Shown here: piece after piece, positions 5,030 to 32,298 of the stretch
Layout: each line of letters opens with the position of its first letter
How positions within the stretch are numbered: the first letter of the stretch is position 1
From: Actinomycetes bacterium
GTDB lineage: Bacteria; Actinomycetota; Thermoleophilia; RBG-16-64-13
Length of the DNA stretch: 34,115 nucleotides
Direction: 5' to 3'
Assembly: GCA_021802965.1 (NCBI GenBank)
Contig: JAJZQZ010000008.1
Coordinates: forward strand, 1-34,115
Program-made: the position numbers and the translations under genes
The notes under the pieces: generated by a model
The model's database searches: none
What the model was told of the DNA's origin: nothing
What the model saw: only the letters and a program-made list of their open reading frames with translations

Positions 5030-5443
5030 GTGGACCACGAAGGCACACTCGTCTTGATCGTCGACGACGAGCCGGACATCCGGTCGTTCCTCGCCGATCT
5101 GCTCACCACGCAGGGATTCCACTGCACGTGGGCCGACAGCGGCCCGGCCGCCCTGGCCCAGCTGGGCCCCCTGGACCCCGACGTGATCTTGCTCGACATC
5201 ATGATGCCGGGCATGAGCGGGCTCGAGGTGCTGCGCCAGATACGGGAGCGCGACGACGTAGATCCCTCGGTCATCATGATCTCCTGCCTGGGGCACCCCA
5301 ATACAACTCTCCGCGCGCTTGAAGAAGGAGCCGACCACTTCGTCGTCAAGCCGTTCCGCGTCAACGAGTTACTCGACACGATGAAGCAGGTGCTCGATCG
5401 CCGGGCCCTGGGCGAGGACGTCCCCGACGACCAGAAGTCCTAG
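5030..5443 (+). CDS. single-domain response regulator (CheY-like receiver)
   Basis: A 137-residue protein made of one receiver domain with no output domain. It has the acidic pair D12/D13, phosphoacceptor D56 in LLDIMMPGMSG, S85 in the Thr/Ser position and K107 in VVKPF, so phosphorylation is expected to work. The GTG start is set by GGAGA at 5020-5024; an ATG at 5028 is out of frame and opens only a nine-codon frame. A sigma-28-like promoter lies upstream, consistent with a chemotaxis or motility role, but no kinase gene is in the window. The stop codon shares bases with the converging accA stop (CTAG at 5440-5443). Confidence 0.92.
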   Translation: MDHEGTLVLIVDDEPDIRSFLADLLTTQGFHCTWADSGPAALAQLGPLDPDVILLDIMMPGMSGLEVLRQIRERDDVDPSVIMISCLGHPNTTLRALEEGADHFVVKPFRVNELLDTMKQVLDRRALGEDVPDDQKS

Positions 5444-6426
5444 ACGACGATCTCGCCCGGGGCCAGCACGCCCATGTTGAGGTAACGGCTGCGCCGCTCG
5501 CGCATGCGCACCCCCGGTGCCACCGCTTCCAACTCCCGCAACCCGGCCTCGATCTGTCGAGCCACAACCTTCGCTGTAGCCCTATGGTGCTTGTGCGCCC
5601 CCTTCCGGGGCTCGGGGATCACCAGGTCGACGACTCCCAGCCGGTACATGTCGAGGGCCGTGAGCCGCAGGGCCTCGGCCGCCTGATCGGCCTCGGCGAC
5701 GTCACGCCAGAGGATCGCCGCGCAACCCTCGGGGGTGATGACCGAGTAGTAGGCGTTCTCGAGCATGTACACGCGGTCGCAGAGACCCAGAGCCAGGGCC
5801 CCACCCGAACCCGCTTCGCCGATGATGACGGCGACCGTGGGCACGGATAGTCCGGCGAAGACCTTGAGGGTGCGCGCGATGGCGCCCGCCTGCCCCCCTT
5901 CCTCGGCGTCGACCCCGGGAAAGGCCCCCTGCGTGTCGATCAAGGTGACCACCGGCATGGAGAACTTCTCGGCGAGCACCGCCAAGCGTTGCGCCTTGCG
6001 GTATCCGTCGGGCCGGGGCATGCCGAAGCTGCGGAACTGACGCTCCTTCAGGTCGTGACCTTTTTGCTGCCCGATCACCACCACGGTGCGTCCGTCCAGT
6101 GAGGCGAGACCCGCCACGATGGCGGGATCGTCCGCTCTCAACCGGTCGCCGTGGAGCTCCACGAAATCGGGGAACGCATGCTCGATGTAGTCGAGAGTCT
6201 GGGGTCGATCTTGGCGCCGGGCAAGCTGAACCCGCTTCCAGGCGACACCGGACGAGTCCTTACGTTCCCTCAGGCCCTCGAGTTGAGCCTCGATCTTCTG
6301 GATCTCTTCTGAATAGCCAACCCCGGGGAGTGAGGGCAAGCTCTTTAGCTCGTGCAATTGCTTGAGTAAGCGGGCCGCCTCCGCGTGGTACGACCTCCTG
6401 ATGCGGTCGAAGGGGTTCAATGTCAC
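5440..6426 (-). CDS. accA: acetyl-CoA carboxylase carboxyltransferase subunit alpha
   Basis: AccA pairs with AccD to transfer carboxyl from biotin to acetyl-CoA, giving malonyl-CoA for fatty-acid synthesis. Family segments visible include VQLARRQDRPQTLDYIEHAF, VIGQQKGHDLKERQFRSFGM, LIDTQGAFPG, GEAGSGGALALG and VITPEGCAAILW. The GTG at 6426 is chosen because GGGAGG (6440-6435) lies 8 bases upstream; the frame also opens at a GTG at 6435, which sits directly on that site. From 6426 the protein has 328 residues, a normal size. The first 167 bases overlap the 3' end of accD in a different frame, an unusually long overlap. It is the last gene of the fab-acc cluster and ends stop-on-stop with the receiver gene. 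Confidence 0.95.
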   Translation of the reverse strand: MTLNPFDRIRRSYHAEAARLLKQLHELKSLPSLPGVGYSEEIQKIEAQLEGLRERKDSSGVAWKRVQLARRQDRPQTLDYIEHAFPDFVELHGDRLRADDPAIVAGLASLDGRTVVVIGQQKGHDLKERQFRSFGMPRPDGYRKAQRLAVLAEKFSMPVVTLIDTQGAFPGVDAEEGGQAGAIARTLKVFAGLSVPTVAVIIGEAGSGGALALGLCDRVYMLENAYYSVITPEGCAAILWRDVAEADQAAEALRLTALDMYRLGVVDLVIPEPRKGAHKHHRATAKVVARQIEAGLRELEAVAPGVRMRERRSRYLNMGVLAPGEIVV

Positions 6427-7276
6427 AGCGTACACCTCCCTCCAACAGCGTCAGCAGTCTCACGAGCTGCACCCGCAGGTCGCGCCGATGGACCACCATG
6501 TCGATCTGACCGTTGGCCAGATTGGACTCCGACCGCCCGAAGTCGGCCGGCAGCTTCTCCCTGGTGGTCTGCTCGATCACGCGAGGCCCGGTGAAGCAAA
6601 GGAGCGCGCCCGGCTCGGCGACGATCACGTCGGCCAGAGTCGCGAAGCTGGCAAGCACGCCGCCCGTCGTCGGATGTGTGAGCACCGACACGAATGGGAG
6701 GGCATGGTCCGCGAGGAGGTCGAGCGCGACCACGGTCTTGGCCATCTGCATGAGCGAGAGGATGCCCTCCTGCATGCGGGCCCCCCCCGATGCCGCGACA
6801 ACCACCAGCGGGACCGACTCGTCGATGGATGTGGTGACGAGACGCGCGAACCGCTCCCCGACCACGGAGCCCATCGAGCCGCCCAGAAAGCGGAAGTCCA
6901 TGACCCCGAGCCCGGCCCGCTTTCCGCCGATGCGACACATGCCCCCGAGGAACGCCTCGGAGAGGCCCGTCTCGAGCTGAGCGTCAGACAAGCGGTCGGT
7001 GTAGGAGCGGCTGTCGAAGAAATCCAGGGGATCACTCGGTCTGAGGTCACCCGCGACCTCCACCCAGGTACCCGCATCGGCCAACTGGGTGATGCGATCC
7101 GGAGCGGTCACCGGAAAATGGTGGGAGCAGTGGGGGCAGACGAAGAGCGCCGCCTCGAGCTGCTGCTGGGTCAGAGGGTTATCGCACTGTGCGCACCGAG
7201 GAATCTCCGGCTCGGCCGGCGCCCCCGAGACCGGGGGCTCCTTCGGTGTGATCTGGACGGTGACGTATCTGCTCAC
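6260..7276 (-). CDS. accD: acetyl-CoA carboxylase carboxyltransferase subunit beta
   Basis: AccD is the zinc-ribbon beta subunit of acetyl-CoA carboxyltransferase. The zinc ribbon is C28-x2-C31-x15-C47-x2-C50, followed by the crotonase-like fold with GGARMQEGILSLMQMAKT and HPTTGGVLASFATLAD. The core typical of the family ends near residue 282 (LLTLLEGGV). The frame then runs on for 56 more residues in the same DNA that encodes the start of AccA, so this tail is either a genuine extension, a passive read-through, or a sign of a sequence indel in what is elsewhere sometimes an accD-accA fusion. It starts with GTG, 44 bases after fabF. The biotin carrier and carboxylase subunits are not in the window. 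Confidence 0.95.
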   Translation of the reverse strand: MSRYVTVQITPKEPPVSGAPAEPEIPRCAQCDNPLTQQQLEAALFVCPHCSHHFPVTAPDRITQLADAGTWVEVAGDLRPSDPLDFFDSRSYTDRLSDAQLETGLSEAFLGGMCRIGGKRAGLGVMDFRFLGGSMGSVVGERFARLVTTSIDESVPLVVVAASGGARMQEGILSLMQMAKTVVALDLLADHALPFVSVLTHPTTGGVLASFATLADVIVAEPGALLCFTGPRVIEQTTREKLPADFGRSESNLANGQIDMVVHRRDLRVQLVRLLTLLEGGVRCDIEPLRPHQEVVPRGGGPLTQAIARAKELALTPRGWLFRRDPEDRGSTRGPEGT

Positions 7277-7283
7277 GCGCTTA

Positions 7284-7302
7284 CCAAGACTTCATGGCTC
7301 GA
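7284..7302 (+). repeat. possible remnant of the dispersed palindromic element
   Basis: CCAAGACTTCAT at 7284-7295 is identical to 12687-12698 near the right arm of the element at 12551, and the next bases (GGCTCGAC) match 4 of 8 there (TGTTCAAC). It lies in the 44-base gap between fabF and accD. Chance similarity cannot be excluded. Confidence 0.25.
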
Positions 7303-7304
7303 CG

Positions 7305-7321
7305 GTCTCCTCGGCGGAGAC
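7305..7321 (-). other. small perfect hairpin between fabF and accD
   Basis: GTCTCC and GGAGAC form a perfect 6-bp stem with a 5-base loop. The hairpin reaches the first base of the fabF stop codon and lies upstream of accD. There is no T-run, so it is not an intrinsic terminator; it could protect or process the polycistronic message. Role uncertain. Confidence 0.3.
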
Positions 7322-8577
7322 TACTCCTCGTGGCGCCCGAAGACGATGGTGGCGTTGTGCCCTCCGAAGCCGAAGCTGTTGGAAGCGGCGTAGCGGACGT
7401 CGGCCGTGCGCATGACGTTGGGCACGTAGTCGAGGTCGCATTGAGGATCGGGGTCTTCCAGATTGATGGTGGGAGGCACCTTACCCTCCACGATGGTCAA
7501 GACCGCAGCCGCCGCCTCCAGAGCGCCGGCGGCCCCGAGACAGTGCCCGAACATGCTCTTGGTCGAGCTGACCATCACCCGGTCGGCGGCGTCGCCCAGA
7601 GCGTAGCGGACGGCCCGGGTCTCCATGGCGTCACCGAGGGGCGTCGAGGTGCCGTGGGCGTTGATGTAGTCGAGTTCCTCCGGCTCCACCCCGGCCATAT
7701 CTATGGCCTTGCGCAGAGCCGTGCCCGCAGGCACGCCGCTCGCGTCGGGCTCGCTCAAATGGAAGGCGTCGCCAGTCATGCCGTAGCCCAGGAACTCAGC
7801 GTAGATGCGGGCGCCGCGCGCCAAGGCATGCTCCCGCTCTTCGAGCATCAGGACCGCCGCCCCCTCGCCGATTACGAAGCCGTCACGGCCCCGGTCGAAG
7901 GGGCGGCTGGCGCGCCGCGGCTCGTCGTTGCGGGTGGACAGGGCGCGCATGGCCGCGAACGCGGGCACCCCGATGTGCCCGATGGGAGCCTCGGCGCCCC
8001 CGGCGAACATGGCCACGGCGTCGCCGCGCCGGATGATGTGGAAGGCGTCGCCGAGGGCATGGGTGCTCGCGGCGCACGCGGTGCAGGTGGCGCTCACCGG
8101 GCCCTTGAGGCCGAGAGTGATGGACACGTGGGCAGCGGCCATGTTGGGGATCATCATCGGGATGAAGAACGGGTTCACGCGGTCGGGCCCGCGTTCGAGC
8201 AGCACCTTGGTCTGCTCGTAGAAGGTGTCGAGTCCACCGATGCCCGAACCCACGAAGGCTCCCACCGAATAGGGATCGAAGTCCGCCGGGAAAGCGGCGT
8301 CCTCCCGGGCCATCACGGCGGCCGCCACACCGAACTGTGCGTAACGGTCCATGCGCCGGGCCGCCTTCTTCTCCATGTACCGCTCGGGCTCGAACCCGTC
8401 GACCTCGGCGCCGATGGTGACGGCGAAGCCGGTGGTATCGATACGCTGTATGGTCCGCACCCCGGACACGCCGGCCAAAAGGGCGGAGAAATACGCGTCC
8501 TTGCCCACGCCCACCGCCGACACCACGCCGATCCCGGTGACGACCACCCTCCGGGGGAGTGCCAGCTTCGCGCTCAT
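7321..8577 (-). CDS. fabF: beta-ketoacyl-ACP synthase II
   Basis: A 418-residue condensing enzyme that extends acyl-ACP with malonyl-ACP. The KAS II catalytic triad is present: C168 in TACAAS, H308 in INAHGTSTPLGD and H345 in SSTKSMFGHCLGAAGALE, with the conserved K340. The C-terminus has the glycine-rich SNSFGFGGHNATIVF. Length is typical. Its ATG overlaps the fabG stop by four bases, so the two are translationally coupled. In many bacteria acpP sits between these two genes; here there is no room for it. Confidence 0.97.
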   Translation of the reverse strand: MSAKLALPRRVVVTGIGVVSAVGVGKDAYFSALLAGVSGVRTIQRIDTTGFAVTIGAEVDGFEPERYMEKKAARRMDRYAQFGVAAAVMAREDAAFPADFDPYSVGAFVGSGIGGLDTFYEQTKVLLERGPDRVNPFFIPMMIPNMAAAHVSITLGLKGPVSATCTACAASTHALGDAFHIIRRGDAVAMFAGGAEAPIGHIGVPAFAAMRALSTRNDEPRRASRPFDRGRDGFVIGEGAAVLMLEEREHALARGARIYAEFLGYGMTGDAFHLSEPDASGVPAGTALRKAIDMAGVEPEELDYINAHGTSTPLGDAMETRAVRYALGDAADRVMVSSTKSMFGHCLGAAGALEAAAAVLTIVEGKVPPTINLEDPDPQCDLDYVPNVMRTADVRYAASNSFGFGGHNATIVFGRHEE

Positions 8578-9329
8578 ATCCCGAGTCCACCGTCCACCGG
8601 GAGCACGACGCCGGTGATGAAACCGGATGCGTCGCTGGCAAGGAACGCGATGGCTTCCGCGACGTCCTGCGGCATGCCCATGCGCCCGAGGGGGGTGCTC
8701 CCGACGATGGCGTCCCGGACGGTCTCGCTCAGGGCGGCCGTCATCTCCGTCTGGATGTAGCCGGGAGCGATGGCGTTCACGCGGACGTTGCGGGGAGCCA
8801 GTTCGCGAGCGAGCGACTTCGTCAGCCCGATGAGGCCGGCCTTCGCGGCGGAGTAGTTCACCTGGCCGGCGTTCCCCCGCCGCCCGACGACGCTCGCCAT
8901 GTTGATGATCGACCCCGAGCGCTGCTTCATCATGCTGCGCGACACAGCTTTGCTCAGCAGGAACGACCCTTTCAGGCTGACGTCGACCACCAGGTCCCAG
9001 TCGGCCTCGGACATGCGCGCGACGAGGCCGTCGCGAGTAAGGCCGGCGTTGTTGACCAGGATCTGGACCGGGCCGAGGCCGGCTTCGACGGCGGAGACCG
9101 CCTCGAGCGTATCGGCCTCGCGGGACACATCGGCGACCACGGGGATCGAACGACGACCCAGACCTTCGATCTCAGCCACGACGGCGGCCAGTCGGTCAGT
9201 ATCAAGGTCGAGCACAGCCACGTCGGCACCCCGTTCGGCAAGAAGCAAGGCGATCGAACGCCCGATGCCCCGGGCTCCTCCGGTGACGAGGGCCACCTTG
9301 CCTGCCAGCGACCACGCCTCGCCACTCAT
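8574..9329 (-). CDS. fabG: 3-oxoacyl-ACP reductase
   Basis: A 251-residue short-chain dehydrogenase that reduces 3-oxoacyl-ACP with NADPH. The nucleotide-binding motif TGGARGIG lies at about 16-23, NNAG at about 93-96, and the catalytic residues are S146, Y159 and K163 (YSAAK). The fourth residue of the usual tetrad, Asn in WDxVxxxNLxG, is Ser118 here (DVSLKG). It overlaps fabD upstream and fabF downstream by four bases each. Context between fabD and fabF makes FabG the firm choice among SDR enzymes. Confidence 0.95.
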   Translation of the reverse strand: MSGEAWSLAGKVALVTGGARGIGRSIALLLAERGADVAVLDLDTDRLAAVVAEIEGLGRRSIPVVADVSREADTLEAVSAVEAGLGPVQILVNNAGLTRDGLVARMSEADWDLVVDVSLKGSFLLSKAVSRSMMKQRSGSIINMASVVGRRGNAGQVNYSAAKAGLIGLTKSLARELAPRNVRVNAIAPGYIQTEMTAALSETVRDAIVGSTPLGRMGMPQDVAEAIAFLASDASGFITGVVLPVDGGLGI

Positions 9330-10264
9330 TGGGAACCTCCCTTGCCGTTCAAAAGCACCAACACCTCATCCAGGGGCACGGCCCCGTCTGTGCCGTACAC
9401 GGAAAAACCGGACGACACCCTCTTCACCAGCCCCGCAAGCACACCGCCAGGACCCACTTCGACCCCCACTTCGAGCTCGGGGAGCAGACCGCGCATGCTC
9501 TGTGTGAAGCGCACCGGTGACGTGAGCTGGCGGACAAGCGTCTCCCCTATCTCATCCGGCTCAGGATACCTCAGCTCCGTGGTGGAGAAGAACCTGCCTC
9601 GGACGGGCGCGACGAACCTCACCCGCTCCAACGCTTGTCTCAGAGGCCCGGCGGCCTCGGCGACGAGAGGGCTGTGGAAGGCGCCCGACACCTGCAGGGG
9701 CAGCGCCCTGCGGGCTCCCCTTTCGAGAGCGAGCTTGCAGGCCGACTCCACTCCGCGTGGAGTCCCTGAGATCACTACTTGGCCCGGGCAGTTGTAGTTG
9801 GCCGGCCAGACCTCGCCGACCTCGGAGCAGACGGCGTCCACGTCCTCGTCACCGACGCCCATGATCGCGGCCATCGCGCCGGGCTTCCTCTGGCCACACT
9901 CCCACATCGCTCGTCCCCGGGCCTCGACCACCCGCAGCGCGTCGGCGAAGTCCACTTGGCCGGTGGCCACCAATGCCGAGTACTCCCCCAGGGAGTGGCC
10001 GGCGGCGACTGAGAAGTCGAATCCCGCCTGCTCGAGCACGCGCCACGTCGCGACGCTGCAGGCGAAGATAGCGGGCTGTGCCTTGTCGGTGCGCGTCAAC
10101 TCGGAGAGCGGCCCGTTCATACATAACCCGCGCAGATCCCAGCCGAGCAGGTCTTCTGCCTCGTGGAAGACGGCTCGCGACACGGGAAACGTCTCCCACA
10201 CCGACCGTCCCATGCCCACGGCCTGGCTTCCCTGGCCGGGAAACAGTAGTAGTACTCTAGACAT
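9326..10264 (-). CDS. fabD: malonyl-CoA:ACP transacylase
   Basis: A 312-residue acyltransferase that loads malonate onto ACP. It shows the N-terminal LLFPGQGSQAVGMG, the nucleophile S91 in GHSLGEY, substrate carboxylate-binding R116 and catalytic H197 in GAFHSPL. Length is normal. It overlaps fabG by four bases, and follows fabH with a 36-base gap. It is part of the seven-gene fatty-acid cluster. Confidence 0.97.
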   Translation of the reverse strand: MSRVLLLFPGQGSQAVGMGRSVWETFPVSRAVFHEAEDLLGWDLRGLCMNGPLSELTRTDKAQPAIFACSVATWRVLEQAGFDFSVAAGHSLGEYSALVATGQVDFADALRVVEARGRAMWECGQRKPGAMAAIMGVGDEDVDAVCSEVGEVWPANYNCPGQVVISGTPRGVESACKLALERGARRALPLQVSGAFHSPLVAEAAGPLRQALERVRFVAPVRGRFFSTTELRYPEPDEIGETLVRQLTSPVRFTQSMRGLLPELEVGVEVGPGGVLAGLVKRVSSGFSVYGTDGAVPLDEVLVLLNGKGGSQ

Positions 10265-10300
10265 GAATCCTCCTCGGGCGGCCTTCTGCCGGCGCGCCGC

Positions 10301-11317
10301 TCAAAGCGGGCCGGCCGCACCCCATTCCATGAGACATGCTCCCCAGGTGAGCCCGGCCCCGAACCCCATCAGTAGAACCAGGTCACCCTCGTGCAGCCTG
10401 CCGGAGGCGCTGGCCTCGTCGAGGCAGAGGGGGACCGAGGCGCACGAAGTATTGCCGTAACGCTCCAGGTTGGTGCACACCCGCTCGCGCGGGATGCCGA
10501 GGCGCCCTGCGGCGTGCTCGATGATGCGCATGTTGGCCTGATGCGGCACGAAGAGATCGATCTCGTCGATGCGGCGCCCGCACTGCTCGAGGACGCGAGT
10601 AGCCGAGTCGCCGATGATACGTGTGGCGAACCGGTACACCTCCCGCCCGTTCATCTTGAGGTAATGCTGCCGGGCGTCGACCGTGTCGTGCGTCGCGGGC
10701 ATGCGTGAGCCTCCCGCGGGGACCGAGAGCAACGGGCCCCCCGCGCCGTCGCTGCCCAGGTCGAAGCCCAGGATGCGTCCGCCGCCCTCCGTCGCGGGCG
10801 CCACGACCGCCGCTCCCGCTCCATCGCCGAACAGCACCGCCGTGCTGCGGTCCCGCCAGTCCAGGATGCTCGAGATGACCTCGGCGCCCACTATCACCAC
10901 GTGCTCGTGGATGCCCGCGCCGACCATGCCCGAGGCCAGAGCCAGGGCGTAGACGAAACCGCTGCAGCCGGCGGATAGGTCGCAGGCGCCCGCCCTGACG
11001 GCGCCGATCTCATAGGCGATCCGCGAGGCGGTCGGCGGGAAGAGCTGGTCCGGAGAGATGGATGCGGTGATGACCAGGCCGATGTCTTCCGGAGGTAGAC
11101 GCGCACGGTCCACGGCCTGTCTCGCCGCGAGAATGCCCAGGTCCGACGCCGATACCCCCGGCGCCGCGACCCGGCGCGCGCCGATCCCGGTGCGCTGCCT
11201 GATCCACTCGTCCGTGGTGTCGAGGGAGCGACTGAGCTCGTCGTTGGTGACTTCCCGGTCCGGCAGCGCCGTGCCGAGCGCCGTGATCGTTACCGCGCGC
11301 CCCTCGAGTCCCACCAT
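10301..11317 (-). CDS. fabH: beta-ketoacyl-ACP synthase III
   Basis: A 338-residue initiating condensing enzyme that joins an acyl-CoA primer with malonyl-ACP. The catalytic triad is C118 in LSAGCSGFVYAL, H259 in FVPHQANMRI and N289 in ERYGNTSCAS. The N-terminal TTDEWIRQRTGI motif is also present. It begins 8 bases after the fabZ stop. Substrate preference (straight or branched primer) cannot be read from the sequence. Confidence 0.97.
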   Translation of the reverse strand: MVGLEGRAVTITALGTALPDREVTNDELSRSLDTTDEWIRQRTGIGARRVAAPGVSASDLGILAARQAVDRARLPPEDIGLVITASISPDQLFPPTASRIAYEIGAVRAGACDLSAGCSGFVYALALASGMVGAGIHEHVVIVGAEVISSILDWRDRSTAVLFGDGAGAAVVAPATEGGGRILGFDLGSDGAGGPLLSVPAGGSRMPATHDTVDARQHYLKMNGREVYRFATRIIGDSATRVLEQCGRRIDEIDLFVPHQANMRIIEHAAGRLGIPRERVCTNLERYGNTSCASVPLCLDEASASGRLHEGDLVLLMGFGAGLTWGACLMEWGAAGPL

Positions 11318-11325
11318 GCCGCGCG

Positions 11326-11757
11326 TCAGCTGGGGTCGGTCAGCGCGAACGTGAGGGTGGCGGCGCAGGCAAGCTGGCCGCCCACGAAGACCTTGCCCTC
11401 GCCTTTACCCACGGGTCCGCGCACCGTCGCCACCTCGATCTCGAAGCGCATCGTGTCGCCCGGCACCACCTGCCGCCGAAAGCGGACCTTTTCGATGCCC
11501 GCGAAAAGAGCGATCTTGCCCCGATTCTCCGGAACAGAGAGGAGCGCCACCGCCCCCGTCTGAGCCAAGGCCTCGACCTGCAGCACGCCGGGGAACACGG
11601 GATAGCCGGGGAAGTGTCCCCGGAAGACGTCTTCATCGCCCGTCAGGTCACGCTCCGCGACGGCGCGTTTGCCGGGCTCAAGCTCCAGCACCCGGTCGAT
11701 CAGCAGGAACGGATCCCGGTGCGGGATGATGGCTTCTATCTGACTCCTGTCGAGCAC
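11326..11757 (-). CDS. fabZ: 3-hydroxyacyl-ACP dehydratase
   Basis: A 143-residue hot-dog-fold dehydratase that removes water from 3-hydroxyacyl-ACP. The catalytic H48 lies in FRGHFPGYPVFPGVLQ and E62 in VEALAQTGAV. The N-terminal IPHRDPFLLIDRV is typical of FabZ rather than FabA. It is the first gene of the minus-strand fatty-acid cluster, and a putative promoter lies about 100 bases upstream. Confidence 0.96.
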   Translation of the reverse strand: MLDRSQIEAIIPHRDPFLLIDRVLELEPGKRAVAERDLTGDEDVFRGHFPGYPVFPGVLQVEALAQTGAVALLSVPENRGKIALFAGIEKVRFRRQVVPGDTMRFEIEVATVRGPVGKGEGKVFVGGQLACAATLTFALTDPS

Positions 11758-23531: not shown

Positions 23532-23746
23532 GACTCACCCCCTTGCGGTAAAGAGCGCGCACGACGAGAGCCCCGCCGAGCGCTGTATGCGACCGCTGCT
23601 TCCGGTGTGCCCCGAGGATGTTCGCGCGGTGTGGACCGTGAGGGGCATGGGTTGGGTGCAGCCCACGGATTCTCTCATGAATCATGGCCGTTGCGCTATC
23701 ATCCCTGGGAAAAGCGGACGCCCTTTCTCCTCGCGAGGCCGGCACC

Positions 23747-26700
23747 ATGAGACCCACGATCACAGCCATCGAGCAGGACCTTCGCCGCCTGCTTCGAGGC
23801 GATGTCGAATTCGATGATCTGACCCGTCATCTCTACGCAACCGACGGCGGCATCTACCAGATCGAGCCCCTGGGGGTCGTGTCTCCACGCGACGCCGAAG
23901 ACGTCAGCCGATTGGTCGAATACTGCAGCGAGCGGGGCGTGGCCATGGTCCCTCGAGGCTCCGGATCGGGGCTCGCCGGGGCCGCGGTGGGCGCCGGTTT
24001 GATGGTCGACTTCACCCGCTACATGAACAAGATCCTCGAGGTGGCGCCTGACGGCAGCTGGGCCCGAGTGCAGCCGGGGCTGGTGATGGGGGCGCTGAAC
24101 GCCCACGTCAGGCAATACGGCACCTTTTTCGCGCCGAACCCCTCCAGCGAGAATTACTGCAGCCTGGGGGGGATGATCGCCAACAACTCGTCGGGTGGCC
24201 GGTCGGTCGCCTATGGCGGCACCAAGGACCACGTCCTTGCCCTGGACATCGTGCTCCACGGGGGCGAGGTCTTCCGCGCATCGGCCCTCGGCCGCGACAG
24301 CGCCGAGCTTGCGGAGTTCCTGGCAGGAGGCGGTCTAGGCGCGAAGGCGTTCGCCCAGATCCTGCCGTTGCTCGAACAGAAGCGGCAGGCGATCGCGGCG
24401 TCGATGCCCCGGGTGCTCAAGAACTGTTCCGGGTACCGCATCGAGACCGTGTTCGACAGCTGGGCGTCCTCGGGAGCGCCCGCGTGGCGAACCGGCGCCG
24501 GTGGCGGGAGCGGCGGAGAGGCGGGCACAGGCGGCAAGAGCTCGGGCGACGGCATGGTCAACCTGCAGAAGCTCTTCGTCGGCTCGGAGGGGACACTGGG
24601 CCTGGTGACGGAAGCGACGCTCAACCTGGTGCCGCTGCCCGGCCGGCGGGCCATCGGCATGGCCTACTTTCCCAGCGTCTTCGCCGCGGGCGAGGCCGTC
24701 TTCGGCATCCTCGACCTAAAGCCCACGTCCATCGAGATCATGGACTCCAACTTCCTCGCCTTCGTGCGAAAGAACAACTCGAAGATCGACGCGATGCTGC
24801 CCGCGGTGGTCGACACCGCCCTCTTGATCGAGTTCGAGGCCCCGGACGACGCGGAGCTCGACGCGCAGCTGACGTCCCTCGAGCGCCTGCTTGCCGGTGG
24901 TACGGCTCTGCAGGTCAAGCGCGCTCTCGGGGCCGCCGAGCAGAAGCAGCTCTGGGCTGTGCGCCAAGCTGCCGTGCCGCTGCTGCAGAAGCTTCCCGGA
25001 CCGCGAAAGATCGTGGAGTTCATCGAGGACATCACGGTCCACCCTGACGTGCTCGCCCAGTACATGAGCACGGTGGCCGGCATCCTGGAGCGTCACGACG
25101 TGCAGGCCATCATGTACGGCCACGCCGGCGACGGCAACATCCACACGCGCCCGATCCTCAGCACCAAGGACCCCCGCGACCTGCGCCTCATGAGCACCAT
25201 CATGGAAGAGGCGATGCAGGTGGTCATGGAGCTCAAGGGCACCCCCTCGGGGGAACACGGCGACGGGCTGGTCCGCTCCCCCTACGTTCGGCGCCTCTAC
25301 GGCGACGAGGTCTACGGGGTGTTCCAACAGATCAAGGAAGCTTTCGACCCCGCGGGTATTATGAACCCCGGCAAGAAGGTGGTCGACGAGGCGACCACGG
25401 GGGGCATCGCGACGAACCTCCGCTACGGCCCCGACTACTACGTGTACGAGCAGCGGAACCTGCTGCATTTCCCAAACGGTGAGTACCAGATAGAGATAGA
25501 GAAGTGCCACGGGTGCGCCCAGTGCAAGAGCGTGGTCGCCACCACCATGTGCCCCACGTACAAAGCCGTGCGCCGGGAGCATGCCTCTCCCCGAGCCAAG
25601 GCGAACCTGCTGCGCAACGTCATCTCCGGACGGCTGGACCCGTACGACACGTGCGTCTCCGAGGCCGCCAAGGAGATCACCGACTATTGCATCGAATGCG
25701 GCATGTGCGCCCTCGAATGCCCGTCGAACGTCGACATCCCCAAGCTGATGCTGGAAGCCAAGTCCAAGTATCGGGCCGCCCGCCCGGGAGCGCCCGTCGA
25801 CGCCATCCTCGGTCATGCCGAGCTGGTATCCAAGCTGGGAAGGTTGGCGTCGCCGTTGGCGAACCCTCTTGCCAACCAGGGGATCGTGCGGCGCGTGGGT
25901 GAGAGGCTCGGGGGCATCGACCGCAGGCGGACCATGCCGAGATACGCCCGCAAGAGCTGGGCACAGATGGTGGCCGCGCGGCGGAAGGGCGGCGTGACGC
26001 CCCCGGTGGCCCAGGCACGCTTACAGGACGACGACTCCGCGCATGCCGGGCACACCCCGGTAGACGCAGTGCCCGCCGCCGGCGCCGTCGCCGCGATCAC
26101 CTCCGACGGGCTCCCCGCGACCGGCCGCGGCGGTTCGGTCGCCTTCTTCTACGACCTCTACGCCAACTACAACGACCCCGCACTCGCGCAGACCATGGAC
26201 AACCTGCTCCGTGCTCACGGGGTCGAGGTGCACTACCCCGACCAGCGGGGATGCGCCGTCCCGGAGATGCTGTACGGCTACGCCGAACGGGCCCGCGAAG
26301 CCGCCGCCGCCAACGTCGCCGGGGCCCTTCCCTTCGTACGCGCGGGCGACCAGCTGGTCAGCGGGGAGCCGACCGCGAGCTTCGCCTTCAAGGTGCACTA
26401 CCCCGACTACGTACCCACCGCCGAGTGCTCGCTGGTCGCCAACGCCGCCCGGGATCTGGGCGAGTTCCTCTCCAACCATCGCGCCGACCACCCGGAGCTC
26501 GCCCCCAGCCCGGTCGCGGGCCTAGCGCTCAAGGTAGCCTACCATCAGCCCTGCCATCTGAAGACCCAGCAGATCGGCATGCCGTTCTTCGAGCTGCTGA
26601 AGCAGGTCCCCGACCTCGAGCTGGTCAACCTGGATGCAGGCTGCTGCGGCATGGCGGGTACCTTCGGCATGAAGGCCGAGAACTTCGATCTCTCCATGGA

Positions 26701-26851
26701 GGTGGGCAAGCCGCTGTTCGAACGCGTGGCCGCTGTCGCCCCCGACATGATCGCGTCTGAGTGCAGCACCTGCCGCATGCAGCTCGAGCAGGCGACGGGG
26801 CTCCGGAGCTTTCACCCGGCGGAACTGCTGGCACGCGCATACGGCATCTGA
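23747..26851 (+). CDS. FAD/Fe-S D-lactate or glycolate-type dehydrogenase (GlcD-GlcF fusion)
   Basis: A 1034-residue fusion. The FAD part (about 1-560) has the PCMH-type FAD motif PRGSGSGLAGAAVG, then KNCSGYRIE, VGSEGTLGLVTEA, GHAGDGNIH and GEHGDG. A two-cluster ferredoxin region follows: C587, C590, C593 then C602-P with eight residues between the last two instead of the usual three, and the standard set C648, C651, C654, C658-P. The C-terminal part has two cysteine-rich (CCG) modules including HQPCHL (C936), DAGCCGMAGTFG and SECSTC. Such fusions oxidise D-lactate, glycolate or D-2-hydroxyglutarate and feed electrons to the membrane chain. The ATG at 23747 follows GAGG at 8 bases; an ATG 21 codons earlier is less likely. 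A LarA gene follows on the same strand, favouring lactate. Confidence 0.92.
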   Translation: MRPTITAIEQDLRRLLRGDVEFDDLTRHLYATDGGIYQIEPLGVVSPRDAEDVSRLVEYCSERGVAMVPRGSGSGLAGAAVGAGLMVDFTRYMNKILEVAPDGSWARVQPGLVMGALNAHVRQYGTFFAPNPSSENYCSLGGMIANNSSGGRSVAYGGTKDHVLALDIVLHGGEVFRASALGRDSAELAEFLAGGGLGAKAFAQILPLLEQKRQAIAASMPRVLKNCSGYRIETVFDSWASSGAPAWRTGAGGGSGGEAGTGGKSSGDGMVNLQKLFVGSEGTLGLVTEATLNLVPLPGRRAIGMAYFPSVFAAGEAVFGILDLKPTSIEIMDSNFLAFVRKNNSKIDAMLPAVVDTALLIEFEAPDDAELDAQLTSLERLLAGGTALQVKRALGAAEQKQLWAVRQAAVPLLQKLPGPRKIVEFIEDITVHPDVLAQYMSTVAGILERHDVQAIMYGHAGDGNIHTRPILSTKDPRDLRLMSTIMEEAMQVVMELKGTPSGEHGDGLVRSPYVRRLYGDEVYGVFQQIKEAFDPAGIMNPGKKVVDEATTGGIATNLRYGPDYYVYEQRNLLHFPNGEYQIEIEKCHGCAQCKSVVATTMCPTYKAVRREHASPRAKANLLRNVISGRLDPYDTCVSEAAKEITDYCIECGMCALECPSNVDIPKLMLEAKSKYRAARPGAPVDAILGHAELVSKLGRLASPLANPLANQGIVRRVGERLGGIDRRRTMPRYARKSWAQMVAARRKGGVTPPVAQARLQDDDSAHAGHTPVDAVPAAGAVAAITSDGLPATGRGGSVAFFYDLYANYNDPALAQTMDNLLRAHGVEVHYPDQRGCAVPEMLYGYAERAREAAAANVAGALPFVRAGDQLVSGEPTASFAFKVHYPDYVPTAECSLVANAARDLGEFLSNHRADHPELAPSPVAGLALKVAYHQPCHLKTQQIGMPFFELLKQVPDLELVNLDAGCCGMAGTFGMKAENFDLSMEVGKPLFERVAAVAPDMIASECSTCRMQLEQATGLRSFHPAELLARAYGI

Positions 26852-26923
26852 GGGCGAGCGCCGGGATCGCTGCGCTGTGAGCCAGGGGCCCGGAGCGCCC
26901 CTGCGAAAAGGGAGGAGAGCAGC

Positions 26924-28186
26924 ATGTACATCGACGTGCCTTGGGACACGGCCACCGTCCCGGTCAAGATCGACGAGGCCCGCTTGGGCGCCGTCATCGA
27001 GTCGAAGACCGTCAAGGTGCGCGACGAGGCCGCTCTGCTGCGCGAGCTCCTCGCTGGGGACCGCGGCGACCCGGGACTGCGGGCGTTCCTCGAGGCTGCG
27101 AGCGGGCCCGTGGTGGTGGTCGTCAACGATGCCACCCGCCCCACCCCGAGCGGCCGCGTCATCGAGATCATGCAGCCCGACCTCGAGGGATACGACCTGG
27201 AGTTCCTGGTCGCCACGGGCTCCCACAAGCCGCCGGGGGAGCACGAGCTCGAGCAGATCTTCGGCCGCGCCATGCGCGAGCACTACCTCGACCGCATCCA
27301 CAGTCACGACGCCAAGGACGACGGCGAGCTCGTGCACATCGGCGAGACCTCCCGAGGTGTCCCGGTCTGGCTCAACCGGCGCATCGCCGAGGCGAAGGAC
27401 CTATTGCTGATCAACTCTGTCGAGCCTCACTACTTCGCCGGCTACACTGGGGGACGCAAGTCGCTCTTCCCTGGCGTCGCGGGCTACGCCACCATCGAAG
27501 CCAACCACAAGCTGGCCCTCGACCCGGCCGCGGACAACCTTGCGCTGGAAGGCAACCCGGTGCACGAGGACCTCGAAGAGATGGTCGCGCTGCTCGGGGA
27601 CAAGCGCATCTACTCCATCCAGATCGTCCTCGACCATCAGCACCGCATCCATTCGGCCCACGTCGGCGATCTCGAGGAGAGCTGGCGTGCGGCCGTTCAC
27701 CATGCCGACGACCACTACGTGGTCGACCTCCAGCAGAGGTACGACATCGTGGTCGCGGCGGCCCCGTACCCCATGGATTACGACCTCTACCAGTCGCAGA
27801 AGGCTCTGGAGAACGGGTCGCTCGCGCTCAAAGATGGCGGAGTGCTGATCCTGGTCTCGAAGTGCCGTCACGGCATCGGCGCCGAGACCTTCTTCCGGCT
27901 GATGTCCTCAGCCTCGACCCCGGATGAGGTGCTGTCCTCCATCGAGGGCAACTACATCCTCGGCTACCACAAAGCCGCGCGCCTTGCTCATATCGCCAAC
28001 CGCGGAGAGATGTGGGGGGTGACCGGCCTACCCGAGGACGACCTCGAGGCGGCCTTCATCCGGCCCTTCCCCTCGGTGCAGCAGGCCGTCGACGCCGCTT
28101 TGGCCCGCAAGGGACCCAGGGCCCAAGTGCTGTTTCTCATGGATGCGTCGATCACGGTACCACGGGTGGCGACGTCGGCCTCCTAA
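26924..28186 (+). CDS. larA: LarA-family nickel-pincer racemase/epimerase
   Basis: A 420-residue LarA homologue. LarA interconverts L- and D-lactate with a nickel-pincer nucleotide covalently bound to lysine. The key residues align at a constant offset with those of the Lactobacillus enzyme: H101 in ATGSHKPP, H169 in VEPHYFAGY, K179 in GGRKS and H195 in EANHKL, plus R72 in NDATRP. The ATG follows GAGGAG. It lies 72 bases after the dehydrogenase gene, so the pair may convert both lactate isomers to pyruvate. The family also has members acting on other 2-hydroxyacids. The cofactor genes larB, larC and larE are not in the window. Confidence 0.9.
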   Translation: MYIDVPWDTATVPVKIDEARLGAVIESKTVKVRDEAALLRELLAGDRGDPGLRAFLEAASGPVVVVVNDATRPTPSGRVIEIMQPDLEGYDLEFLVATGSHKPPGEHELEQIFGRAMREHYLDRIHSHDAKDDGELVHIGETSRGVPVWLNRRIAEAKDLLLINSVEPHYFAGYTGGRKSLFPGVAGYATIEANHKLALDPAADNLALEGNPVHEDLEEMVALLGDKRIYSIQIVLDHQHRIHSAHVGDLEESWRAAVHHADDHYVVDLQQRYDIVVAAAPYPMDYDLYQSQKALENGSLALKDGGVLILVSKCRHGIGAETFFRLMSSASTPDEVLSSIEGNYILGYHKAARLAHIANRGEMWGVTGLPEDDLEAAFIRPFPSVQQAVDAALARKGPRAQVLFLMDASITVPRVATSAS

Positions 28187-28236: not shown

Positions 28237-31200
28237 TCAGGCTGTCGGCCGTCCGATGTCGCGCAGCATGGCGACCACATCTTTGGGCAGGACCTTGGGC
28301 TTCTTGCGGGCCGCGTAGCAGCTCCAGATGAGCTGGGAAGCCCGCTCGATGATCTCCACCGAGTTGGCGGCTTGACGCAGATCACCTGCGGCCACCAGCA
28401 ATCCGTGGTTCTGCAGTAGGACCGCGCTACCCTCGCCGAGAGCCCGGGTGACCGCATCGGCGAGGTCCCGGCTGCCGGGCATGATGAAGGGCACCCGCGG
28501 GATGTCCCCGAAGAAGGCGGCCTCGGTGGTGACCGGAAGGAAGGGCAGCCCGCTCAAGGCCAGGACGGTGGCATAGGGGGCGTGCGCGTGGATGACGGCC
28601 TCCACGTCCGGCCGCGCCTTGTAGATGTCGCAGTGCAACAGACGCTCGCTCGAGGGGGTGAGCGCATCCGGGTCAAGGGTCGCACCGTCGAGGTCGATGC
28701 GAACCAGGGACGCCGGCTTCAGCTCTCCCTTGAACAGCTGACTCGGCGTGATCCATACGATGTCGCCGCCGGGTTCACGGGCACTGATGTTCCCCCCGGT
28801 CGGAGTCAGCAGCTGAGCGGCGAACAGCTGGTCGGCGATCCGCACGATCTCGTCGGGTAGGCCGTCCCCGGTCCCGGCGGCGGCGCGAGGGCCAGGGACG
28901 CGCAAGACGGGAGCGGATGGGACGGTCTGAGGCAAAGGCACGGCGGAGAAGTCGATGCCGCCCGCTTCGTCCCGGCAGGCGGAGTACAGGCGGATGAGGT
29001 CCCGCTGCACCTTCTGCACTCCCATGGCCAGACGCACGTCGCCGTTGAAGGAGAGCTTGCCGGACATCGCCGCCCGGTGACCACTGATCTTGCCCGTCAG
29101 GATGCCATCGAATACCTCAGCCCTGGCCTTCATGCGCACTTCGGCCGGGCGCGGGGGAGCCCCCATGCCCGCGGTGGTCCGGCCGTTGTTGAAGCCGATG
29201 AAGAACTCCAGGTCCAGGTCGCTCATGATGTAGTGGGTCGTCACGTCCCGCTTCGCGGCGAACGCGGCGAGGGCGGGATCCTCGAGGGCGCGCGCGATGA
29301 ACAGGTGGACGATCTTCTCCACGTGCGCCCTCAGGGGTGAACCCGCCTCGGAGGGAGGACCTGGCGGCGCCTCCGCGGCGACGGCAGTCCCCGCACCGGC
29401 GGGGGCCGCAGCCCCCACGCCGATGACAAGGGCGGCGGCGGAGCCGGCCCCGCCTGCGAGGGCCGCCCCGGTCGAGGGTATCGTGGTGGCTTGAAGCCGG
29501 CTCCCGGCTGCCGAGTCGCCGGCAGGGCGCAGATCGCTCACCTCGGGGCCGGGCCGCTCGGCCAGAGCGTCCAGGGTGGCGTCATCGAGGAGCCGCCGCG
29601 GCCCCTCCCAGGTGAACCCCACCAGAGCCTCGGGGTTCAGCAGGTGAGCGGGCGGCTGCCCCTTGGCCATCCGGCGCAGATCGGCGGCGATAATAAGGCC
29701 TTGGTGCCCCGCGACCTCGAACGTGTTGCCTGCCATATGCGGCGTGGCGACGACGTTGGGCAAGGCCAGCAGGGGGTGATCGGCCCCGGGGGGTTCCACC
29801 GAGAATACGTCGAGGGCGGCGCCGGCAAGCCGGCCGGCGCGCAACGAGTCGGCGAGAGCGACCTCGTCGACCAGCGCGGCCCGAGCAGTGTTGACCAGAA
29901 CGGCTCCGGGCTTCATGCGGGCAAGCTCGCGGGCGCCGATGAGGCCGCGGGTCTGGTCGGTCACGGGGGCATGCAGGCTGACGATGTCGCTGGCAGTCAG
30001 CAGCTCGTCGAGCGTGGCCGGCTCGGCGTCGGCCGCCAACACGTCGGCGGGCCGGGCATAGGGGTCGTAGACGAGGATCCGGGAGCCGAACCCACGCAGC
30101 CGCCCCGCCACGGCTTTCCCCACGGCGCCCAGGCCCACTAGCCCGATGGTCCGGCCGCCCAGCTCGTGCCCCTGGAACTCCGAGTGGGCCTGGCCCTGGC
30201 GGCCCATGTCGCCCGCTTCGCCACCGGGCAGTCGCAGGAAGGCGTCGGCTTCGAGCACGCGGCGCAAAAGTACCAGCATGAAGGTGACCGCGAGATCGGC
30301 GACCGCTTCCGCGTTTCGCCCGGGAGCATAGAGCACCGGGATGCCCAGGGCGGTACAGGCGGCGACGTCGACGTTCACCGCCTGGCCCCGGCAGGCGGCC
30401 ACGACCCGCAGGTCGGGCAGCTCACGCAGGGCCTCGACGTCGACGATGTCGGCCTCGGTGATGAAGACCTGACAGCCCTGCAGCTCCTCGACCAGGTCCT
30501 CTCCGGAGAGGACACGCAGAGCTTCGCGGTAGCTGACGTGGGCGACGTCGCCCAAGGTGCGAAGCTCGGACAGACCGGCTTCGTCGAGATCGGCGGTCGC
30601 CAAGATCCGAAGGCGGGGCGCCGGCGCGGCCACGGGCTCCACCGGGTCGGGGCGGTGCATGATGCCCTCGAGGGCGGCCGTCGAGGCAAGCTCGTCGGCC
30701 GCCATCCCCGCCTGCCGCACCGCCAGCCAGTCGGCGTACAGCCCCGCGTAGATCGAGGTGTTCTCGGGGTGGGGCTCCACGGGGCGCACGCGCGCGAGCG
30801 CGCGGGCGCCCTCGACCAGGTCCGAGTAGACGCCGGCGCCGACACCGCCACAGATGGCGGCCCCGAGAGCGCTGGCTTCAGGCGTGGATGAGACCAAGAC
30901 GACATGACCGAGAGTGTCGGCCACCATCTGCGTCCACAGAGGGCTCCGGGTCATCCCGCCGGCGAGGCGCACGTCGAGCGAGGGGGGCGGCGCGCCGCAG
31001 GCCGCCGCCACGATGCGCAGCTGATCCAGGTTGGCTCTCACGGCGTACGCCATGCCCTCCAGGACGGCCCGGTTGAGGGCTGCCCTTCGTCCCGCGGAGT
31101 CGCCCTGACCGCCCATATGGGCCAGTGAGAGGGAGCCCACCGGAAAGCCCATCTCGCGCGCGTTCATCACGGCTGCCCCGAACGTCGAGAAGATGCCGTC

Positions 31201-32187
31201 GGAGCCGGGAACGGAGCGCTCCGCCTCGGAGGCGAACCTGCTCACGGGGTTGGCAGAGCCCGGATAGAGCACTCCCGAGAGCCAAGCGAGAGCCTCTCCC
31301 GTGTCCCCGGCGTTGCTTTCGAGCACCCAGGCCTCTGACATGACGTGGCACCCCGTCCATGTGCGCGCCTGCGGATCCGTGCAGGGGCGGTCGACCACGG
31401 ACTGCACCGGGGTGGTGCTGCCCGCGATGGCGGCCACCTGACCGCTCTCGACGGCTCCCGCGCCGAGCAGCCCGCACTGAGTGTCGGCCCCGCCCATGGC
31501 CACGGGCGTGCCGGCCCGCAAACCCAGGGCCGAGGCGGCGCCGTCGGTCAACCTCCCGAGCACCGACCCCGACTCGACGACAGGAGGCAGCAGTGTACGG
31601 GGCACCTCGAGAAGCTCGATCAGGTCTTCACCCCAGCTCCTGGTGCCGAGATCGAGCATCAGGCTCTCGGCCGCTTGCGAGGGGGTCGTGGCCCGCTCCC
31701 CTGTCAGCCAGCAACCGATCCAGTCGCTCAGACTCAGGGCGCCGGCGGCTCGGGCCATCACCTCCGGTCGATCGTGGGCGAGCCAGCGCAGGCGAGCGGC
31801 CGCAAAGATGGGCAACGGCCAGTGGCCGGCTCTGCCCGCGAAGAGACTGCCGTAGTCGGCGGAGAGGGACAGCCCTTCGTTGGCGGAACGTGCGTCACGG
31901 TTCGGCACCGCAACGAGGGGGCGCCCCTGCGTGTCGACCACGACCAGAGAGAAGCGCATGCTGGTCGCGGCGATACCGTGGACATCGCCCGGTGAGGCCC
32001 CCGCCTTGCGCAGGGCCTCCCGCGCCGCCTCACCGAGCAGGCGCAGACAGAGATCGAGGTCGAGGTCGAAGGCGAAGGCGCCGGAGGCGGGGACCGGTTC
32101 CCACGGCCGGACGGCGGTGACGACACGCCCGGCCTCCGCTTCGACCAGCAGGCAACGCACGCTGTGGCCTCCGACATCAAGGCCCAT
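28237..32187 (-). CDS. four-domain fusion: FGGY kinase, 2-hydroxyacid dehydrogenase, SCP2, class II aldolase
   Basis: One open frame of 1316 residues. (1) About 1-495: FGGY sugar kinase, most like autoinducer-2 kinase LsrK (GLDVGGHSVR, D235 in GGADTQ, GAGVYSDLVE). (2) About 525-855: D-2-hydroxyacid dehydrogenase with GLVGLGAVG (682-690), R769, E798 and H817. (3) About 950-1075: SCP2 sterol-carrier-like domain (MSDLDLEFFIGF, AAMSGKLSFNGD). (4) About 1105-1316: zinc class II aldolase with E1181, H1200-x-H1202 and H1261 in QNHGLL. Pro/Ala-rich linkers at 510-525, 870-950 and 1080-1108 separate the domains, as expected for a true single chain. The three enzymes keep the key residues listed. A TAGAAT at 32250-32245 may be its promoter. 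A sugar phosphorylation-oxidation-cleavage sequence is inferred; the substrate is unknown. The start is ATG at 32187 (a TTG lies one codon before). Confidence 0.9.
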   Translation of the reverse strand: MGLDVGGHSVRCLLVEAEAGRVVTAVRPWEPVPASGAFAFDLDLDLCLRLLGEAAREALRKAGASPGDVHGIAATSMRFSLVVVDTQGRPLVAVPNRDARSANEGLSLSADYGSLFAGRAGHWPLPIFAAARLRWLAHDRPEVMARAAGALSLSDWIGCWLTGERATTPSQAAESLMLDLGTRSWGEDLIELLEVPRTLLPPVVESGSVLGRLTDGAASALGLRAGTPVAMGGADTQCGLLGAGAVESGQVAAIAGSTTPVQSVVDRPCTDPQARTWTGCHVMSEAWVLESNAGDTGEALAWLSGVLYPGSANPVSRFASEAERSVPGSDGIFSTFGAAVMNAREMGFPVGSLSLAHMGGQGDSAGRRAALNRAVLEGMAYAVRANLDQLRIVAAACGAPPPSLDVRLAGGMTRSPLWTQMVADTLGHVVLVSSTPEASALGAAICGGVGAGVYSDLVEGARALARVRPVEPHPENTSIYAGLYADWLAVRQAGMAADELASTAALEGIMHRPDPVEPVAAPAPRLRILATADLDEAGLSELRTLGDVAHVSYREALRVLSGEDLVEELQGCQVFITEADIVDVEALRELPDLRVVAACRGQAVNVDVAACTALGIPVLYAPGRNAEAVADLAVTFMLVLLRRVLEADAFLRLPGGEAGDMGRQGQAHSEFQGHELGGRTIGLVGLGAVGKAVAGRLRGFGSRILVYDPYARPADVLAADAEPATLDELLTASDIVSLHAPVTDQTRGLIGARELARMKPGAVLVNTARAALVDEVALADSLRAGRLAGAALDVFSVEPPGADHPLLALPNVVATPHMAGNTFEVAGHQGLIIAADLRRMAKGQPPAHLLNPEALVGFTWEGPRRLLDDATLDALAERPGPEVSDLRPAGDSAAGSRLQATTIPSTGAALAGGAGSAAALVIGVGAAAPAGAGTAVAAEAPPGPPSEAGSPLRAHVEKIVHLFIARALEDPALAAFAAKRDVTTHYIMSDLDLEFFIGFNNGRTTAGMGAPPRPAEVRMKARAEVFDGILTGKISGHRAAMSGKLSFNGDVRLAMGVQKVQRDLIRLYSACRDEAGGIDFSAVPLPQTVPSAPVLRVPGPRAAAGTGDGLPDEIVRIADQLFAAQLLTPTGGNISAREPGGDIVWITPSQLFKGELKPASLVRIDLDGATLDPDALTPSSERLLHCDIYKARPDVEAVIHAHAPYATVLALSGLPFLPVTTEAAFFGDIPRVPFIMPGSRDLADAVTRALGEGSAVLLQNHGLLVAAGDLRQAANSVEIIERASQLIWSCYAARKKPKVLPKDVVAMLRDIGRPTA

Positions 32188-32298
32188 CAAGAAGCTACTC
32201 AGGAGGTGCTCCCTTGCAGGGTAGGATGAGCGGGGACAGCTCGGATTCTACACCAGGCTCATCGCCCGCGCCCCCGTCGCGCAGGGGCAGCCGGGCGC

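Follow-up and report, generated by a model that had tools for sequence, protein, structure and literature searches.

A bacterial polypeptide joining sugar kinase, 2-hydroxyacid dehydrogenase, SCP2 and class II aldolase domains as a probable collapsed catabolic operon

Multi-enzyme fusions are a known kind of catabolic protein. In Arabidopsis, the L-threonate metabolizing domains protein (LTD, AT1G18270), a land-plant fusion of dehydrogenase, kinase and aldolase built from NAD_binding_2/11, SBD_N/NBD_C and F_bP_aldolase domains, is needed for L-threonate breakdown (PMC12540250). Here we describe a fusion of another composition, encoded by a single gene of an Actinomycetes bacterium of the class Thermoleophilia, in which an FGGY sugar kinase, a D-isomer 2-hydroxyacid dehydrogenase, a sterol carrier protein 2 (SCP2) domain and a class II aldolase follow one another in one chain. 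The gene lies in a stretch of 34,115 nucleotides (contig JAJZQZ010000008.1 of assembly GCA_021802965.1, positions 1 to 34,115), the whole of which we call the window. We found no description of the kinase-dehydrogenase-SCP2-aldolase architecture in the open-access papers searched, and it appears to be undescribed there. We propose, with a probability of roughly 60%, that the protein is a catabolic operon collapsed into one polypeptide, with SCP2 inserted before the aldolase, and that it acts on a sugar acid or keto sugar.

The gene occupies positions 28237-32190 of the minus strand, stop included, as one unbroken frame of ~1316 residues. Its likely start is the ATG at 32187, preceded immediately by an in-frame TTG at 32190, and its stop is at 28239-28237. 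The plus strand over 28237-32190 is full of stops in that frame, and codon-position GC supports coding nearly throughout, the third position reaching ~0.8-0.98 in almost every block of 50 codons; in the linker (block 901-950), the richness in Ala, Gly and Pro makes third-position GC uninformative. A Pfam search of the translated protein placed FGGY_N, FGGY_C, 2-Hacid_dh, 2-Hacid_dh_C, SCP2 and Aldolase_II in this order, each above its gathering cut-off. An initial annotation of this DNA had read one uninterrupted frame with the same four domains in the same order, giving no strand, and this reading holds. A promoter/terminator scan found none.

The same arrangement recurs in other genomes. Among 61 genomes searched, a metagenome-assembled genome (MAG) of the same family and a different genus (G004) has a full-length open frame that is 53% identical, and a scan of the genomes of 84,980 species, restricted to two kinase peptide motifs, returned G004 again together with a 'Deltaproteobacteria' MAG and a Spirochaetales contig, the taxon labels of these relatives being the submitters' own. 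The 'Deltaproteobacteria' relative (P0003) is full length, has all four domains and lies gap-free inside a 397-kb contig. In the G004 assembly a 10-N run falls in the SCP2-aldolase linker, so that the last junction is unproven there. In the Spirochaetales MAG, a kinase-dehydrogenase reads off the end of one contig and an SCP2-aldolase runs in frame from the edge of a second (L045); these contig ends do not overlap, and they are presumably the two parts of one fusion.

When these four fusions are compared, identity to the window protein is 43-48% in the kinase, 56-62% in the dehydrogenase, 38-54% in SCP2 and 53-61% in the aldolase, and no catalytic residue examined varies. In the three linkers, identity to the window protein mostly lies at 20-33% (one comparison 44%), and length varies: linker 1 (residues 496-525, 30613..30702, Ala/Pro-rich) shows 20-30%, linker 2 (residues 861-957, 29317..29607, of low complexity, Ala/Gly/Pro-rich and variable in length) 22-32%, and linker 3 (residues 1074-1110, 28858..28968) 22-44%, all on the minus strand. 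Judged from its sequence, the fusion is genuine, as MAGs bearing the labels of three phyla keep the same order at ~50% identity. Assembly error, a missed stop or a frameshift was ruled out by the stop-free full-length relatives on independent contigs of other genomes. The residues that the initial annotation had singled out (D235, R769, E798, H817, E1181, H1200, H1202 and H1261) occur unchanged in each of the four fusions, and the three enzymes look catalytically intact, as it had read them. The shared four-domain order that it asked for in other genomes exists in G004 and the 'Deltaproteobacteria' MAG. The finding it had named as fatal, homologues that are always separate genes with stops at the linkers, did not emerge; fused and separate states both exist.

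The fusion is rare and patchy. Two of the 149 class genomes have it, and both belong to the window's family, which contributes 18 genomes to that set; a search with the SCP2 segment through 297 genomes of the phylum returned the window's own copy, one weak stand-alone SCP2 and nothing else. A phage or plasmid origin was rejected, as no full-length match was found among 50,697 phage records (P0001) or 72,556 plasmid records (P0003), both at an E limit of 1e-20; a plasmid search with the SCP2 segment and a viral-contig scan likewise gave none. Elsewhere in the class, class II aldolase matches lie in unusually long frames of 757-1139 amino acids (G059:C142, G024:C50, G034:C42 and G054:C110), which are possibly other aldolase fusions. 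Adjoining the SCP2-aldolase end of the Spirochaetales MAG is a 1041-amino-acid frame (L045, 981-4106) that matches a biotin/lipoate ligase family as well as glycosyltransferase families, an unusual combination.

Three of the four domains are enzymes of recognized families. The first (residues 1-495, 30703..32187, minus strand) is an FGGY carbohydrate kinase, with FGGY_N (6e-36) and FGGY_C (4e-14) above the gathering cut-off and the invariant catalytic D235 in a GGADTQ motif; the fusion kinases form a clade of their own (support 96/98). The second (residues 526-860, 29608..30612, minus strand) is a D-isomer 2-hydroxyacid dehydrogenase of the SerA/glyoxylate-reductase fold, with both Pfam domains (9e-57 and 2e-14), a Rossmann motif and the triad R769/E798/H817, invariant together with D708, whose place after the GxGxxG motif suggests NAD as the cofactor. 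It scores 215 bits against the NCBIfam model for D-3-phosphoglycerate dehydrogenase (SerA; cut-off 454), and falls below every other named NCBIfam dehydrogenase cut-off among the matches listed. The last (residues 1111-1316, 28240..28857, minus strand) belongs to the class II aldolase/adducin family (PF00596, 7e-45, above the Pfam cut-off). Its predicted site, which retains the Ser-Ser-Glu and three His of FucA, comprises the metal ligands H1200, H1202 and H1261, all invariant, the base E1181 and the phosphate site S1179/S1180. The nearest solved structures are DrdA (6btd), FucA and YgbL/OtnC, at 27-31% identity. No named cut-off is reached: the domain scores 113 bits with the L-fuculose-phosphate aldolase model (NF005302, PRK06833; cut-off 264), 108 bits with the OtnC model (cut-off 250) and 111 bits with an epimerase model. 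An AlphaFold model of the aldolase alone is of moderate confidence (69).

From these families a route can be proposed that all three enzyme domains presumably serve. The NAD-type dehydrogenase would turn a 2-hydroxy group into a 2-keto group, or the reverse, its substrate being a small polyhydroxy acid or keto sugar; a terminal hydroxyl would be phosphorylated by the FGGY domain, and the metal-dependent aldolase domain would cleave the phosphorylated keto intermediate by a retro-aldol reaction or decarboxylate it. The products might be a C3 phosphate such as dihydroxyacetone phosphate (DHAP) and an aldehyde or CO2, which would feed glycolysis. As the conserved Ser-Ser pair belongs to the phosphate site of FucA, the kinase probably acts before the aldolase, with phosphorylation preceding cleavage. 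In the Spirochaetales MAG, the gene directly upstream of the fusion is ketose 3-epimerase-like, closer to IolO/psicose 3-epimerase (74 bits) than to OtnI (23 bits), and suggests that the substrate is a keto sugar or keto sugar acid.

In support of this idea, the same three enzyme families adjoin as separate genes in Bacillota. In Enterococcus hulanensis (L026), the genes for the dehydrogenase, FGGY kinase and class II aldolase stand in a row; after them come an Fe-type alcohol dehydrogenase gene, a methylthioribose kinase-like gene and an MtnA-type isomerase-like gene, and NhaC-like transporters flank the cluster, the names being taken from a reading of the translations. In Lachnospiraceae CE91-St61, a first cluster (L027) contains the dehydrogenase, a sugar ABC transporter, the aldolase, an Fe-type alcohol dehydrogenase and the kinase. 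A second cluster of this organism (L046, 6690-12518) reads kinase-dehydrogenase-aldolase-dehydrogenase-kinase, its first three genes in the order of the fusion, with DhaK/DhaL and sugar-binding regulator genes near. The four fused dehydrogenases and four cluster dehydrogenases group together in a tree (100/99), apart from 14 others. The clusters differ from the fusion in being unfused, in having more distant kinases and in that no SCP2 was seen next to the triad in any of them. The initial annotation had imagined substrate channelling in a compact pathway, and it is the compact pathway that these adjoining counterparts in catabolic clusters favor.

Several points weigh against a collapsed operon for sugar catabolism. 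No substrate-specific neighbor is common to the fusion loci examined, and for this reason the identity of the pathway is drawn from the domain families only; every NCBIfam equivalog match listed for the domains stays below its cut-off. A kinase motif shared with the fusion led to the L026 and L027 clusters, a bias in which clusters came to light, and the kinases of these two fall outside the group of the fusion kinases. Furthermore, a lipid-type domain is unexpected in the catabolism of a polar sugar.

The alternative that survives best is a sugar-acid route of the tetronate type. As in the bacterial L-threonate/D-erythronate pathway, DHAP and CO2 would be formed, with dehydrogenase and kinase families unrelated to those of that pathway taking the role of LtnD and of OtnK, respectively, and a class II aldolase-family decarboxylase that of OtnC. 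The three reaction types match that pathway and the LTD fusion (PMC12540250), 3-OtnC has an Aldolase_II domain, YgbL (OtnC) is among the nearest structures, and the loop G-[DN]-[IV]-P-x-V-P-x-x-x-P-G is closer to YgbL than to FucA or DrdA; in addition, the superfamily of the dehydrogenase domain is the one that includes the 4-phosphoerythronate dehydrogenase PdxB. However, the OtnC score, less than half of its cut-off, is no better than those for FucA and the epimerase, the upstream gene of the Spirochaetales locus does not resemble OtnI, and there is no DUF1537-type kinase. We regard this route as unlikely.

The SCP2 domain (residues 958-1073, 28969..29316, minus strand; Pfam 5e-9 to 1e-10) raises a different question. 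In the four fusions it scores 36.9-49.5 bits against PF02036 (36.9 in the window protein), above the gathering cut-off of 21.3. An AlphaFold model of SCP2 plus aldolase is weak overall (pLDDT, the predicted local distance difference test, 52) and confident in the SCP2 part only, and in Foldseek this part matched the SCP2-like domain of an alkylsulfatase, UbiJ-SCP2 and human SCP-2L. The initial annotation, which placed such a domain in the middle of the chain, had recognized a true SCP2. We speculate that it may bind lipid, and so tether the protein to the membrane, or that it may accommodate a hydrophobic portion of a substrate or product. A stricter form of the single-chain pathway, in which SCP2 is a working part that tethers the three sugar enzymes to the membrane or presents to them a sugar or polyol linked to lipid, to be oxidized, phosphorylated and split by aldol cleavage, seems to us distinctly unlikely.

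A slender chance is left for lipid-headgroup catabolism, in which SCP2 would hold the hydrophobic tail of a sugar or polyol lipid and the three enzymes would break down the polar portion. SCP2 is retained in every fusion with a core conserved at 38-54%, the alkylsulfatase domain among the Foldseek matches handles alkyl chains, and the SCP2 domain of UbiJ has been proposed to hold hydrophobic intermediates in the soluble Ubi metabolon (PMC9499169). On the other hand, the separate-gene triads of L026, L027 and L046, which include sugar transporters, have no SCP2 beside them, and no lipid-specific neighbor is conserved.

The kinase could also be taken as a sign of autoinducer-2 (AI-2) processing, in which an LsrK-type kinase acts on 4,5-dihydroxy-2,3-pentanedione (DPD) and later steps degrade phospho-DPD. 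The resemblance to LsrK noted in the initial annotation is real: LsrK is the best NCBIfam match of the kinase, and the LsrK structure 5ya0 is its nearest solved relative (E 2.8e-62; next 1e-28). The substrate drawn from it, AI-2 or DPD, is not supported. Identity to Salmonella LsrK, a single-domain protein encoded in the lsr operon, is only ~32-33%, the score with the LsrK equivalog (NF008187) is 247.5 bits, below half of the cut-off of 528, and the fusion kinases stand in their own clade. No genes for an lsr-type transporter, LsrF or LsrG were found in the window or the fusion neighborhoods examined, whereas the lsr locus of Salmonella has them. Moreover, the enzymes that handle phospho-DPD are LsrG and LsrF rather than a 2-hydroxyacid dehydrogenase and a FucA-type aldolase, and we consider AI-2 processing very unlikely. 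Just as unlikely, finally, are accidental joins of domains that share no pathway and are kept since each enzyme is useful alone. The rarity and patchiness of the fusion (2/149 class genomes) and the lack of conserved gene neighbors fit them. Against them stand the four-part order, maintained at ~50% identity across MAGs assigned by label to three phyla, and the clustering of these three enzyme types as separate genes in other organisms.

The surroundings of the gene in the window were not used as evidence, since neither neighborhood recurs in G004 or the 'Deltaproteobacteria' MAG. On the plus strand (23684-28186), convergent with the fusion, lie a GlcD/GlcF-type FAD/FeS oxidoreductase gene, whose product is a 1055-amino-acid FAD-oxidase + 4Fe-4S + CCG fusion (GlcD/GlcF or YdiJ-like, below cut-offs), and a gene for a homolog of the LarA-family nickel-dependent 2-hydroxyacid racemases (best match LarAH6 malate racemase, 348 bits vs 500). 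The two are likely a 2-hydroxyacid utilization pair. They were rejected as pathway partners, as the pair is not beside the fusion in G004 or in the 'Deltaproteobacteria' MAG (L024). Upstream of the fusion is a gene for a pyridoxal phosphate enzyme. Farther away, a fatty-acid synthesis cluster (5440-11757, minus strand) encodes a FabA/FabZ-like dehydratase, an acyl carrier protein synthase III, an acyltransferase, a ketoreductase and a ketoacyl synthase, followed by acetyl-CoA carboxylase carboxyltransferase-type genes.

Fusion is strong evidence of joint action by the enzymes concerned. The present chain links a subgroup of FGGY kinases, a subfamily of 2-hydroxyacid dehydrogenases and a class II aldolase, all vaguely annotated in databases, and points to a pathway also present as separate genes in gut-type Bacillota. 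A single expressible chain would make the pathway assayable, and SCP2, if functional, would connect carbohydrate breakdown to a lipid-binding module.

The aldolase shares its fold, Ser-Ser-Glu and three His ligands with FucA, DrdA and YgbL, from which it is set apart by low identity and by its C-terminal place in a chain of 1316 residues. MFE-2 and the alkylsulfatases also join an SCP2 fold to an enzyme, but here SCP2 sits inside a carbohydrate-type multi-enzyme. The bacterial L-threonate/D-erythronate pathway (LtnD, OtnI, OtnK, OtnC) has the same three reaction classes, including an Aldolase_II protein in 3-OtnC, but uses separate proteins and other dehydrogenase and kinase families, and the fusion stays below the OtnC cut-off. 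The nearest known analog is LTD, likewise one polypeptide with the dehydrogenase, sugar-type kinase and aldolase/decarboxylase of one catabolic route. LTD comes from land plants, lacks SCP2 and draws on other families in another order, and its domain set is absent from the window protein except for a weak Rossmann-level NAD_binding_2 match (22.9 bits); because families and order differ, LTD is an analog and not a relative of the whole.

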